Of a DNA stretch of 64,000 bases, positions 6,089-51,230 are shown piece after piece (position 1 is the first letter of the stretch; each line of letters starts with the position of its first letter). The translations under genes and the position numbers were made by a program. Source of the stretch: Blastocatellia bacterium (lineage in GTDB: Bacteria > Acidobacteriota > Blastocatellia > Pyrinomonadales > Pyrinomonadaceae); the NCBI GenBank assembly GCA_003168335.1, contig PMSM01000010.1:719588-783587 (forward strand), in the 5' to 3' direction. The notes beneath the pieces are model-generated. The model was given only the letters and a program-made list of their open reading frames with translations. It ran no database searches and was not told where the DNA came from.

Positions 6089-8014
6089 TCAATGCTCGAG
6101 GTGGTACGGCACGTTGGTAACCACAACTCCTCTTTTGAATAATAAAGCTCCTTTTAAAAACAGTGAGTTATGGTTGTGCAGAAGGTTTTGCCACCACTTG
6201 GCGGGGACGAACTCCGGAAGCACAATCGTTACGACCTCGCCATGCGAGCTGCGCTTTACCCGATCAACATAATTGAGGAGCGGGCGCAACAACGAGCGGT
6301 AGGGCGAGGCCACCACCACCAGATTTACTCCGGATCCCCATTGCTCCCATTTCTCGCGCACCTTCTGGGTCGTCTCGTCGTCGAGGTTTACGTACACCGC
6401 TGTGACGTGATGTGGCGCAATCGACTTGGCGTATTCGAGCGCCGCAATGACTCCTCGATGGATACCCGATATGGGAACGATCACCTCGTGATGAATTGGC
6501 CGCAGTTGCCCCAGCCCTTCGGTGGAGAGCTGTTGTGCGACATCTACGTAATGCCGATGGATCTTTAGAAACATCAACACGAGCAAAGGAACCAGCAGTA
6601 CTACGACCCACGCGCCGTGGATAAACTTTGTCGCGATGAAAACGAACAGGACGACGCAGGTCGCGATAGCACCAATACCATTAATGACAATGGACTTTCT
6701 CCAGTGCGATGCTTTCTCGGCTTTCGCTTCGTCCGCTGGAGACTCCGCCGCGGCGCGCAGGGCCTTCCCTTTGTGCCACCAATGAACAACCATTCCTGCC
6801 TGCGACAACGTAAATGAAAGAAAGACGCCGACGGCGTAAAGCGGAATCAGCCGGCTGGTCTCTCCGCGAAAAGCCCAAACCAGAATTCCGGAAAAGACCG
6901 CCAGCAACACGATGCCATTTGAGAAGACCAGCCGATCGCCGCGATTCGCGAATTGACGCGGCAGAAAACGGTCGCGCGCCAGCAATGATGACAGTCGGGG
7001 AAAGTCTGCGAATGATGTGTTGGCGGCGAGGACCAAAATCGCGGCCGTGGTTATTTGCACCAGATAATAGAACCAACTGAAATATCCAGTGAAAATTATC
7101 CGCCCAAATTGCGAGATGACGGTCTCGTGCTGATGCGGATGGATGTTATAGAGATAAGCCATCGCGCTGGTGCCAATGAACATCGTGGCCAGCAGTGCGG
7201 CCATCCAGGTCAGGGTCTTCGCGGCATTGTCTGCTTCGGGCTGTTTGAACGCGGGAATTCCATTCGAGATCGCTTCGATTCCGGTCAGCGCGGCGCAGCC
7301 ATTGGAAAACGCTCCCAACAATAGAAACAACGTCAAAGGCCCCGCTTGATATCCTTCGGCTACTTGTAGATCGACGTCGTTCGGTGGAGGCACAATTCCC
7401 GGGTTCAGATAGTAGCGTATCAGTCCGTACGCAAGCATGAAGAGGAACGTAACAATGAACGCATACGTTGGTCCGGCAAACAGGGCCCCGGATTCCCTCA
7501 CTCCTCGCAAGTTGGCGATCGCAATAAAAGCAATAAAGAAGAGACAGAAGGCCACTCGATGCTCGTCTAACCAGGCCCAGCGGGTACCCACGAACACAGA
7601 AGTAATGGCCGCGACACCCGCGGCGACCGAGACTGACACCGTCAGGATGTAATCAACCAAAAGGGACGCGCCCGCGATCAACCCCGGCAAGGTTCCCAGG
7701 TTGTCTTTCGCGACGATGTACGCGCCACCGCCCGAAGGGTATTCGTGAATCGTCTGCCGGTAACTGATCGCTACGATAATCAGTAGCGAAGCAATACCAA
7801 TCGTAATTGGTATTACCCGGCTGAATGCATGGGCCTGCCCCCCCCACACGTAGGCAGCGGCGAGGACGAGCAGAATTTCTTCAGTGGCGTATGCTGTTGA
7901 GGAGAGTGCGTCGGATGAGAAAACCGCGAGCGCGGTTTTCTTAGTCAATCGCTCGTGTGCTAAGCGTGCTGTTCTGATCGGACTACCGACCAGCAGACGC
8001 TTTAATGAGGCCAT
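6089..8014 (-). CDS. APC-superfamily permease of the KimA (YdaO) type, probable potassium importer
   Basis: Inner-membrane transporter of 641 residues. The N-terminal stretch SSDALSSTAYATEEIL (about residues 33-48) is characteristic of Bacillus subtilis KimA, a high-affinity K+ importer, and its relatives. About twelve hydrophobic segments follow up to residue 480. The C-terminal 150 residues are a soluble domain with an alpha/beta pattern (HEVIVPISGIHRGVIAALEYAKSI) resembling universal stress proteins, as in KimA. In Firmicutes these genes are controlled by c-di-AMP riboswitches; none was recognised here. Upstream lies a candidate terminated small RNA rather than a long leader. A general amino-acid permease remains the alternative. 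Confidence 0.8.
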   Translation of the reverse strand: MASLKRLLVGSPIRTARLAHERLTKKTALAVFSSDALSSTAYATEEILLVLAAAYVWGGQAHAFSRVIPITIGIASLLIIVAISYRQTIHEYPSGGGAYIVAKDNLGTLPGLIAGASLLVDYILTVSVSVAAGVAAITSVFVGTRWAWLDEHRVAFCLFFIAFIAIANLRGVRESGALFAGPTYAFIVTFLFMLAYGLIRYYLNPGIVPPPNDVDLQVAEGYQAGPLTLFLLLGAFSNGCAALTGIEAISNGIPAFKQPEADNAAKTLTWMAALLATMFIGTSAMAYLYNIHPHQHETVISQFGRIIFTGYFSWFYYLVQITTAAILVLAANTSFADFPRLSSLLARDRFLPRQFANRGDRLVFSNGIVLLAVFSGILVWAFRGETSRLIPLYAVGVFLSFTLSQAGMVVHWWHKGKALRAAAESPADEAKAEKASHWRKSIVINGIGAIATCVVLFVFIATKFIHGAWVVVLLVPLLVLMFLKIHRHYVDVAQQLSTEGLGQLRPIHHEVIVPISGIHRGVIAALEYAKSIAPHHVTAVYVNLDDETTQKVREKWEQWGSGVNLVVVASPYRSLLRPLLNYVDRVKRSSHGEVVTIVLPEFVPAKWWQNLLHNHNSLFLKGALLFKRGVVVTNVPYHLEH

Positions 8015-8268
8015 TTTTCATCAAGGCAGCAAACTCATTCGTAATGGCGGCGCTAAAAATGCCACAGTGTGCGCTTGGCAAAGCGGCGACTGTGGCGAAG
8101 CGCCCACCTACGGGGTGGTCTGCTGCTTCATTTATTCTAAGACGAATAACTTCGAGTTCATCTTCGTGCCGTATATTAAGCCACTTCCCAGGAAAGTCCA
8201 ACGACTGTCCTTCAGAGGGCAAGTCGGGCCAGCTGAAGTAGAGCATCGGCGCTGAAAAATCTGGGCCC

Positions 8269-8307
8269 AAAAATAAAACGGGCGGGGCCCTCCCACAAGC
8301 CCCACCC
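8269..8307 (-). terminator. Intrinsic terminator (third hairpin of the candidate small RNA)
   Basis: A 9-bp GC-rich stem (8307-8299 with 8288-8280) followed on the minus strand by a GTTTTATTTTT run. It would end transcripts from the Sm-like gene or the small RNA before the permease. Confidence 0.75.
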
Positions 8308-8363
8308 TAAGGCCACGTGTCCTCACCCCACGCGACCACTTCGCCCAGCGGGGAGCCGGGCGC
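8269..8363 (-). ncRNA. Candidate small RNA: three tandem perfect hairpins with its own promoter
   Basis: On the minus strand, three adjacent stem-loops: H1 8362-8342 (8-bp stem, loop UCCCC), H2 8337-8311 (9-bp stem, loop GGGUGAGGA), H3 8307-8280 (9-bp stem, 10-nt loop with GGGAGG), then a T-rich run 8279-8269 typical of intrinsic termination. All stems are fully paired if G-U is allowed. A promoter sits directly upstream, so a transcript of about 95 nt is predicted. No match to 6S, SRP, tmRNA, RNase P or c-di-AMP riboswitch cores was recognised. The C-rich H1 loop could pair with the G-rich loops of H2 or H3, and GGA in two loops recalls CsrA-binding RNAs. It may instead be a leader or attenuator of the downstream permease. 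Confidence 0.6.
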
Positions 8364-8369
8364 CGCATG

Positions 8370-8398
8370 ATTATGCACAAGTCGCCCAAAAGATGCAA
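8370..8398 (-). promoter_or_regulatory. Promoter for the candidate small RNA
   Basis: Minus-strand CATAAT (8375-8370) with TTGCAT (8398-8393) at a 17-nt spacer; predicted start near 8363, one base before hairpin H1. The -35 is weak, the -10 good. Confidence 0.5.
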
Positions 8399-8477
8399 CT
8401 CAAACTACAGAATTTTTTTGGTTTGCGCGCGCCGGATTTCGCAAGCAAAATCGAATCACTTTTCGTGATAGATCCTA

Positions 8478-8687
8478 TCATTTTGTCTGCGGTGAAACAG
8501 ACTCCATGCTGTGTAGTAAAACGATTATCAGGTTGTCCTCGCCGCCGCTATTTTGCGTTTTTAGAGCCACGTAATCGTTAGTGACATCAGCGATCAATCC
8601 TTCGTAAACGCCACCCGACGCTGTCTTAATAGTGACGGACTGACCACGAAAGCGAATCAGGAGATTTTCGATGTGTTGATAGTTCAT
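8478..8687 (-). CDS. Small Sm-like (LSm/Hfq-fold type) protein
   Basis: 69 residues. The pattern of an N-terminal helix (YQHIENLL) followed by strands RFRGQSVTIKTASG, VYEGLIADVTNDYVALKT and EDNLIIVLLHSMESV fits the five-stranded Sm fold; G-x-L/V-x-D turns as in LSm proteins are visible. It lacks the canonical Hfq YKHA motif, so it is not classical Hfq. Ribosome site AGAAGGA precedes the ATG. It is last in a set with the J-domain and VOC genes (39-nt gap to VOC), and just upstream of the candidate small RNA. RNA binding is inference; a structural or regulatory protein with a generic beta fold is possible. Confidence 0.6.
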   Translation of the reverse strand: MNYQHIENLLIRFRGQSVTIKTASGGVYEGLIADVTNDYVALKTQNSGGEDNLIIVLLHSMESVSPQTK

Positions 8688-8726
8688 TTGGAGATCCTTC
8701 TGCCGCGAACAGCGAACTCACTTTCG

Positions 8727-50564: not shown

Positions 50565-51230
50565 ATCCTAAGCGCCAAAGGCGCGGAATGTAAAAGCCTG
50601 GGGCAACGCCCCAGGTTAGCGGCCTCCTTAGAATCCGAAAGCGCTGAAGGCGCGAAATAATCTGAGAGGAAAAGACTCCCATGGCCCAATCTTTATCGTC
50701 CATCCTGATCCATCTGGTCTTCAGCACAAAGAATCGCGAGTCATTCATAACGCCGGCAATCGAAACGGAATTACATCCGTACATGGCCAAGATCTTTTGT
50801 GAACTGAAGTCGCCGTCGCTCGCGATTGACGGCACAAACGATCATCTGCACATCCTGTTTTCTTTGGGACGAGTAATCAAGGTCGCCGACTTGGTTGAAG
50901 AAGTTAAGACAGCATCATCCAAGTGGATCAAAACAAAAGGACGTGAGTTCAGAAACTTTCATTGGCAGAAGGGCTATGGAGCGTTCTCGATTGGTCAATC
51001 AAACGTGACCACGCTGAAACGTTACATTCGCAATCAGAAACAACATCACCAACGTGTCACGTTTCAGGATGAGTATCGCGAATTCCTCAAGGCCTACGAA
51101 ATTGACTACGACGAACGATATGTTTGGGATTAGACCATTCCGCGCCTTCAGCGCTAGGTTATTCTAACTTGGCGCCCACCTGGGGCGTTGCCCCAGGCTT
51201 TCACATTTCGCGCCCTTGGCGCTTTAGGAT
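50565..51230 (+). mobile_element. IS200/RAYT-type element bounded by inverted REP ends
   Basis: The left end 50565-50616 and right end 51178-51230 are near-identical inverted sequences of 52-53 bp, each with two hairpins (GCGCC/GGCGC and CCTGGGGC/GCCCCAGG). A second pair of smaller hairpins (GCGCT-GAA-GGCGC at 50641-50653; inverse at 51141-51154) flanks the transposase gene. REP-bounded Y1 transposases are called RAYTs and are usually single-copy and domesticated. No target duplication is expected for this class. Confidence 0.85.
50681..51133 (+). CDS. tnpA: IS200/IS605-family Y1 (REP-associated) transposase
   Basis: 150 residues, intact. HUH nuclease motif H55-L-H57 in DGTNDHLHILFSLGR and the catalytic tyrosine Y115 in TLKRYIRNQKQHHQ; both are present, so it should cut and join single-stranded hairpin DNA. 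N-terminal IHLVFSTKNRESFI and C-terminal HWQKGYGAFSIGQSN are typical of the IS200 TnpA group. Start at ATG 50681 after GAGAGGAAAAG. No TnpB/IscB gene accompanies it. Confidence 0.93.
   Translation: MAQSLSSILIHLVFSTKNRESFITPAIETELHPYMAKIFCELKSPSLAIDGTNDHLHILFSLGRVIKVADLVEEVKTASSKWIKTKGREFRNFHWQKGYGAFSIGQSNVTTLKRYIRNQKQHHQRVTFQDEYREFLKAYEIDYDERYVWD

Follow-up and report, generated by a model that had tools for sequence, protein, structure and literature searches.

The window, a stretch of 64,000 nt (C14:719588-783587 of a 5.16-Mb host genome in 14 contigs), contains an intergenic RNA of three hairpins, read on the minus strand from 8363 to 8269, which sequence evidence identifies as a real and new member of an uncatalogued family of stand-alone small RNAs (sRNAs) with a structure supported by comparison among genomes. 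The unusual part of this sRNA family is its loop set, which is common to differently built RNAs of the same soil acidobacterium and its relatives. We favor the interpretation that this gene acts by loop-first (kissing) pairing with other RNAs, and we assign a probability of about 0.55 to that whole statement, encompassing both the stand-alone gene and the mode of pairing.

Architecture and covariation of the RNA

The features of the locus, all on the minus strand, are as follows.

8393-8398, minus: -35 element TTGCAT, conserved in position in 51 of 54 distinct homologues
8370-8375, minus: -10 element CATAAT, in place in 52 of 54 distinct homologues
8269-8363, minus: predicted sRNA of ~95 nt (type 1), based on promoter and terminator positions, stem covariation and family-wide covariance model matches
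8342-8362, minus: hairpin 1, 8 bp, stem CGCCCGGC/GCUGGGCG (8362-8355 / 8349-8342), loop UCCCC at 8354-8350
8311-8337, minus: hairpin 2, 9 bp, stem GGUCGCGUG/CACGUGGCC (8337-8329 / 8319-8311), loop GGGUGAGGA at 8328-8320
8280-8307, minus: hairpin 3 (terminator stem), 9 bp plus a U-G extension, stem GGGUGGGGC/GCCCCGCCC (8307-8299 / 8288-8280), loop segment UUGUGGGAGG containing the GUGGGAG motif at 8296-8290
8269-8278, minus: intrinsic terminator T-tract TTTTATTTTT, based on a terminator scan and the T count in homologues
6089-8014, minus: APC-superfamily permease (PF13520), the downstream neighbor, outside the RNA gene

The original prediction had described stems of 8, 9 and 9 bp within 83 nt followed by a T-tract, without stating the strand, and these are present on the minus strand (8362 to 8280), together with the C-rich first loop and the GGA trinucleotides that it had placed in loops 2 and 3. 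Its description of the hairpins as perfect holds if G-U pairs are allowed and fails otherwise, since stems 1, 2 and 3 contain one, two and one such pairs, respectively. The minimum free energy structure of the minus strand consists of exactly these three hairpins (-56.7 kcal/mol). Folding of this strand is not significant in a shuffle test, with 14 of 200 shuffles folding as well (z -1.68), and plus-strand folding is ordinary (z -0.83). Given the weakness of this single-sequence test, the case for the RNA rests on comparison.

Covariation was analyzed on 55 distinct copies and 26 core pairs, using a gap-free alignment anchored on the loops because a MAFFT alignment (A2) shifted stem 3 by one position in some rows, leading its covariance model (R1) to under-model that stem. 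Paired states occupy 98.5% of stem cells, compared to a mean of 85.0 and a maximum of 87.2 in 500 shuffles of the 55 sequences; compensatory changes affect 18 of the 26 pairs (shuffle maximum 14), and double-change cells number 207 (shuffle maximum 89), the shuffles permuting 3' letters and thus not preserving relatedness among copies. These changes are distributed over 4/8 pairs of stem 1, in which every pair is at least 93% paired, 5/9 pairs of stem 2 and all 9 core pairs of stem 3. Several recur in many sequences; for example, a C-G pair becomes U-A in stem 1, an A-U pair becomes U-A in stem 2, and a G-C pair becomes C-G in stem 3. The stem conservation on which the original prediction had been staked is hence borne out in relatives. 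The stems vary, but not their loops (UCCCC, GGGUGAGGA and GUGGGAG): the first is present in nearly all copies (with variants ACCCC, UCCUC and UCCC), and the third is invariant among type-1 copies. One type-1 copy (L129, G206:C11:25600-25684) carries a UUCG tetraloop in place of loop 2. In light of this conservation, a chance origin of the three-hairpin element appears untenable.

The same pattern bears on whether the element could be a short coding sequence. At least one frame is free of stop codons in 49 of 54 copies, as exemplified by an ORF at 8132-8398 on the minus strand, but loop spacing differs among copies by lengths not divisible by three, the stem changes are compensatory pairs and start codons fall at inconsistent places, rendering a coding role extremely improbable.

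The region preceding stem 1 shows the organization of a promoter, as originally proposed. The -10 element is directly preceded by TGTG and separated by a 17-nt spacer from the -35 element, which takes the forms TTGCA, TTGAAA or TTGCT across homologues, and this spacing predicts a start at ~8363-8364, at stem 1. At shifted control positions the -10 element is found in 0-4 and the -35 element in 1-4 of the 54 distinct homologues. A promoter scan requiring 9 of 12 matches listed no promoter at the RNA locus. At the opposite end, a terminator scan detected stem 3 (11 pairs including G-U) and the adjoining T-tract, and the 14 nt after stem 3 contain a mean of 8.0 T in homologues versus ~4 in flanking controls. 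Conservation extends ~60 nt upstream and ~30 nt downstream, past which it is at background level. This promoter and terminator footprint suggests an independent unit that would start at stem 1 and end at stem 3, in agreement with the original prediction of a new ~95-nt sRNA equipped with a promoter and a terminator.

Distribution and genomic context

A loop-only pattern with free spacers, run on 84,980 genomes, returned 72 stretches, 60 of which have at least 5 bp in each of the three stems. Another three (L031, L032 and L048) are evidently homologous, a loop having shifted or stem 2 having decayed. Nine loop-pattern stretches and two viral contigs lack the three-stem set and were discarded as chance matches, and matches outside the phylum were likewise rejected, the three stems being absent. 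Named homologues in GTDB genomes correspond to Pyrinomonadaceae, Blastocatellia or Acidobacteria records, and on the basis of these names the family handled here as f1 was taken to be Pyrinomonadaceae. A covariance model search located the RNA in 96 of 119 Pyrinomonadaceae genomes, a count that includes a few weak or type-2-only matches (see below). When the search was applied to 396 genomes of the phylum, 27 were positive, all of them Pyrinomonadaceae, and the type-1 RNA was found in no other Acidobacteriota family among these genomes. No Rfam 15 family covers the RNA, either in a scan of the window or in a permissive scan of 7980-8720, and no Rfam 15 match was obtained for the homologues or sister RNAs tested; a literature search combining sRNA and Pyrinomonadaceae returned nothing relevant. 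Elsewhere in the window, two Acido-Lenti-1 RNAs (RF01687; 43112-43156, plus strand, and 50571-50615, minus strand) score just over the gathering threshold.

BLAST identified three further near-full copies in the genome of origin and single or few copies in relatives. Most genomes harbor one core copy in a conserved place, and some harbor 2-5 copies. Multiplicity of this kind, together with the location of type-2 RNAs at the 3' end of a convergent gene, would be in line with a REP- or MITE-like palindromic repeat or a mere transcription terminator. We regard this explanation as very unlikely, given that the element possesses a promoter as well as three covarying stems that keep a constant order, occurs mostly as one core copy and shows no transposase association in the flanks read; the many dispersed copies without a promoter of their own that characterize REP and MITE elements were not found.

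In the window genus, genes encoding DnaJ-domain, glyoxalase and LSm-like proteins are followed by the RNA and then by the APC permease, whose ATG lies 255 nt from the RNA terminator in the window. The LSm-like gene (8478-8687, minus strand), directly upstream of the RNA, encodes a small protein with weak matches to DUF2642 and SM-ATX, and it has been seen beside the RNA in the window genus only. In other genera the RNA is preceded by other genes, including one we take to be matrixin-like from its sequence, and followed by a different permease or by none. Across loci L006-L021, two permease types share the place after the RNA according to genus and other loci have none, with a same-strand permease of cluster 5 at 5 congener loci and of cluster 3 at 7 loci from other genera; the two types did not cluster together by BLAST. 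Extra RNA copies in four genomes adjoin unrelated genes, and several of these are preceded by a different promoter-like sequence, TTGAT-N16-AATA. One extra copy lies beside a DUF3800-VII RNA (RF02967; L003:1615-1733, minus strand) and a DUF3800-like gene. At a locus from another genus, a c-di-AMP riboswitch (L021:1666-1801; 80.5 bits) is located between the RNA terminator and the permease.

The recurrence of a same-strand permease at these 5 congener and 7 other-genus loci, along with the 255-nt spacing, is what a cis-acting leader or attenuator of the permease would lead one to expect. Against this, two congeners (L007 and L009) retain the upstream genes and the RNA without the permease, a locus in another genus (L020) has the RNA and no permease, and the extra copies reside next to unrelated genes. 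Moreover, no anti-terminator alternative was seen, the L021 permease has its own riboswitch past the RNA terminator, the two permeases that occupy the place are of types that do not cluster, and the constant link to one downstream gene that marks riboswitches and attenuators is missing from these loci. A leader function therefore seems most improbable: since loci that lack the permease retain the RNA, the RNA is best read as a stand-alone sRNA gene, and the concern that it might depend on the permease is allayed.

Loops shared by differently built RNAs

The original prediction overlooked that the loop modules are common to other sRNAs of the genome. A covariance model of hairpin 3 matched at least nine strong loci in the genome of origin, and the type-1 loops are found again in at least six further multi-hairpin architectures, where their order differs and the stems that carry them are unrelated.

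Type 1 (window RNA): UCCCC, GGGUGAGGA, GUGGGAG-terminator
Type 2 (~75 nt): C-rich loop (GCCCU, UCCAC or ACCCU), then GUGGGAG-terminator; L131, L132, L157-L176, L212
Type 3: GGGUGAGGA, small hairpin, CCCUAAA/UCCUAAA, GUGGGAG-terminator; own-genome loci C13:23890, C14:956289, C10:189738, C14:634329
Type 4: hairpin, GGGUGAGGA, terminator with C-rich loop; own genome C8:266893-267000 (L282, L222)
Type 5: GUGGGAG, CCUAAA, GGGUGAGGA-terminator (reversed order); L225, L243
Type 6: GGGUGAGGA and UUGGGAG-terminator; L231, L250
Type 7: tandem pair of GGGUGAGGA hairpins; L249, with own-genome C14:638753/638857 assigned by position only

Often, a type-2 RNA has a CI-like HTH gene in divergent and an oxidoreductase gene, presumably HI0933-like, in convergent orientation, although other neighbors occur; tandem copies are present in four genomes (G442, G441, G455 and G028). 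The genome of origin has two more such loci (C12:71481 and C7:514358), so that its further loop-sharing RNAs comprise types 3, 5 and 7 and one RNA that has only the GUGGGAG terminator.

The 11-mer GGGGUGAGGAC has 43 matches in seven congeners, compared to 5 for the reversed pattern, and 36 versus 4 in other RNA-bearing genomes; in 14 genomes of other families the corresponding figures are 27 and 20. Within the genus, 22 of the 33 sites read are apical loops on stems of at least 7 bp, a placement that random GC-closed sites show in 0.24% of cases. When the reverse complement of loop 2 was used to look for targets, it recovered sister hairpins and no conserved mRNA sites. Taken together, these data suggest that the loops are probably a shared recognition code across differently built sRNAs.

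Type 4, which we propose to be the older sister of the type-1 RNA, reaches other families of the class (f2, f6 and f8) and is present in 13 of 297 genomes of the phylum, its relatives including L261, L271, L266, L289-L294, L296 and L299. It comprises three hairpins, and its terminator loop is UCCCAC or close to it, complementary to GUGGGA; at L261 this loop is CUCCCAC, the exact reverse complement of GUGGGAG. An element of the GGC-N7-TTGC type, which we take to be the sigma54 -24/-12 form from knowledge of that family, lies upstream at a constant place in about 18 of 26 type-4 loci. In the window genus the type-4 RNA follows glmM; E. coli GlmY, for comparison, is sigma54-driven.

Mode of action and known systems

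In the mechanism that we favor, a housekeeping (sigma70-like) promoter would start a ~95-nt transcript at stem 1, and stem 3 and the U-tract would end it as an intrinsic terminator, yielding an RNA that is almost wholly folded, with its three loops exposed. The loops would be the working parts of the type-1 RNA because the stems vary freely as long as they pair and the loops do not, and this combination of free stems and frozen loops implies that the loops are read by something. Partners of the UCCCC loop could be G-rich or Shine-Dalgarno-like sequences as well as loops of the GUGGGAG type, and those of the two G-rich loops could be C-rich sequences or loops, for instance the UCCCAC loop of the sister RNA, so that the type-1 RNA might be a trans-acting regulator or a sponge within a network of RNAs carrying the same loops. 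Two features make us favor pairing: most types combine their G-rich loops with a pyrimidine loop, and loops of the G-rich and C-rich kinds are complementary to each other, with a maximum of 7 bp for type 4 against types 1-3. Transcription, trans action and the base-pairing mode of the type-1 RNA are all conclusions we infer. Within the RNA itself, CUCCC of loop 1 is complementary to GGGAG of loop 3, both nearly invariant, and intramolecular pairing of these two loops, in line with the loop-loop pairing raised in the original prediction, is possible. Two observations speak against loop pairing: the replacement of loop 2 by UUCG in the L129 sub-lineage indicates that not every loop is always needed, and loop invariance would be just as expected if a sequence-specific RNA-binding protein read the loops.

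Recognition by such a protein, which the RNA would titrate or guide in the manner of CsrB, is a less probable reading that nonetheless deserves attention. GGGUGAGGA and GUGGGAG have in common a GUGRGRR-like core with GGA, and the loops keep their sequence on unrelated stems, at different positions and in different RNAs, as in CsrB-type sponges. Furthermore, Hfq is encoded in 39 of 40 genomes, including that of origin (C1:309325), so that the presence in the host expected for an Hfq-dependent sRNA is observed, and the RNAs end in a U-tract. However, no candidate protein is linked to the RNA, with CsrA absent and the LSm-like gene restricted to the window genus, and a binder of G-rich loops would leave the pyrimidine loop 1 unexplained.

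CsrA itself, the type of protein to which the original prediction had turned, is a poor candidate. CsrB and RsmZ are CsrA sponges with repeated hairpins, GGA-containing loops and a terminator, and the GGA of loops 2 and 3 recalls them. Neither the window genome nor any of its six congeners encodes CsrA (PF02599), though, and the protein was detected in 4 of 60 relatives, just two of which (G018 and G028) also have the RNA. The G-rich loops of the type-1 RNA, GAGGA and UGGGAG, differ from those of CsrB and RsmZ in lacking the ANGGA core, and they number just two. Titration of CsrA (RsmA) was consequently rejected, as the protein is missing from nearly all checked genomes with the RNA, and we consider the chance that the RNA is a CsrA sponge to be minimal.

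Loop pairing can be extended, more speculatively, to a modular network in which some seven sRNA architectures would be assembled from interchangeable loops and kiss one another. The loop alphabet would consist of GGGUGAGGA, GUGGGAG and the C-rich UCCCC/UCCCAC; the newer RNAs bearing GUGGGAG would act as sponges for the older, sigma54-linked type 4 (UCCCAC), and the window RNA would be the family-wide representative of these newer RNAs. We view this extension as doubtful, and rather less probable than pairing as such. If the loops are a recognition code, they would point either to an unknown RNA-binding protein with a CsrA-like role or to a kissing-loop sRNA network, and either outcome would concern a common group of soil bacteria in a phylum, the Acidobacteriota, whose sRNAs are to our knowledge nearly unstudied. 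The type-1 sRNA is testable at once, being family-wide, with clean covariation, a conserved promoter and named loops.

Among known systems, Acido-1 (RF01686) and Acido-Lenti-1 (RF01687) are non-coding RNAs of Acidobacteriota (PMC2864571), the latter with a 46-nt model that matches elsewhere in the window, and neither matches the type-1 RNA. The mycobacterial 6C/B11 sRNA has C-rich loops thought to pair directly with G-tracts (PMC10470900), but it belongs to Actinomycetota and carries two C-rich loops and no invariant G-rich loops, unlike the type-1 RNA. LhrC of Listeria comprises multicopy sRNAs with UCCC-type loop motifs that meet ribosome-binding sites (PMC4132741), as do the loops of Staphylococcus UCCC-loop sRNAs such as RNAIII, as far as the summary in PMC3771888 goes; in contrast to these, the type-1 paralogues differ in architecture and also have common G-rich loops.

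The nearest known system in mode appears to be sX13 of Xanthomonas, which has three stems and C-rich loops and mediates Hfq-independent repression of mRNAs with G-rich motifs, located near the start codon (PMC3771888). Like sX13, the type-1 RNA is ~100 nt long and intergenic, with three stable stem-loops, its information in the loops and a loop of the C4 type (PMC3771888). Judging from the sequence, it is likewise an independent intergenic gene with a promoter and an intrinsic terminator, and its C-rich apical loop is conserved. In contrast to sX13, which combines three C-rich loops with an unstructured 5' end, the type-1 RNA presents one C-rich and two G-rich loops and no 5' single strand. 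The two RNAs come from different phyla, and the likeness we draw between them is one of mode, with no claim of homology.
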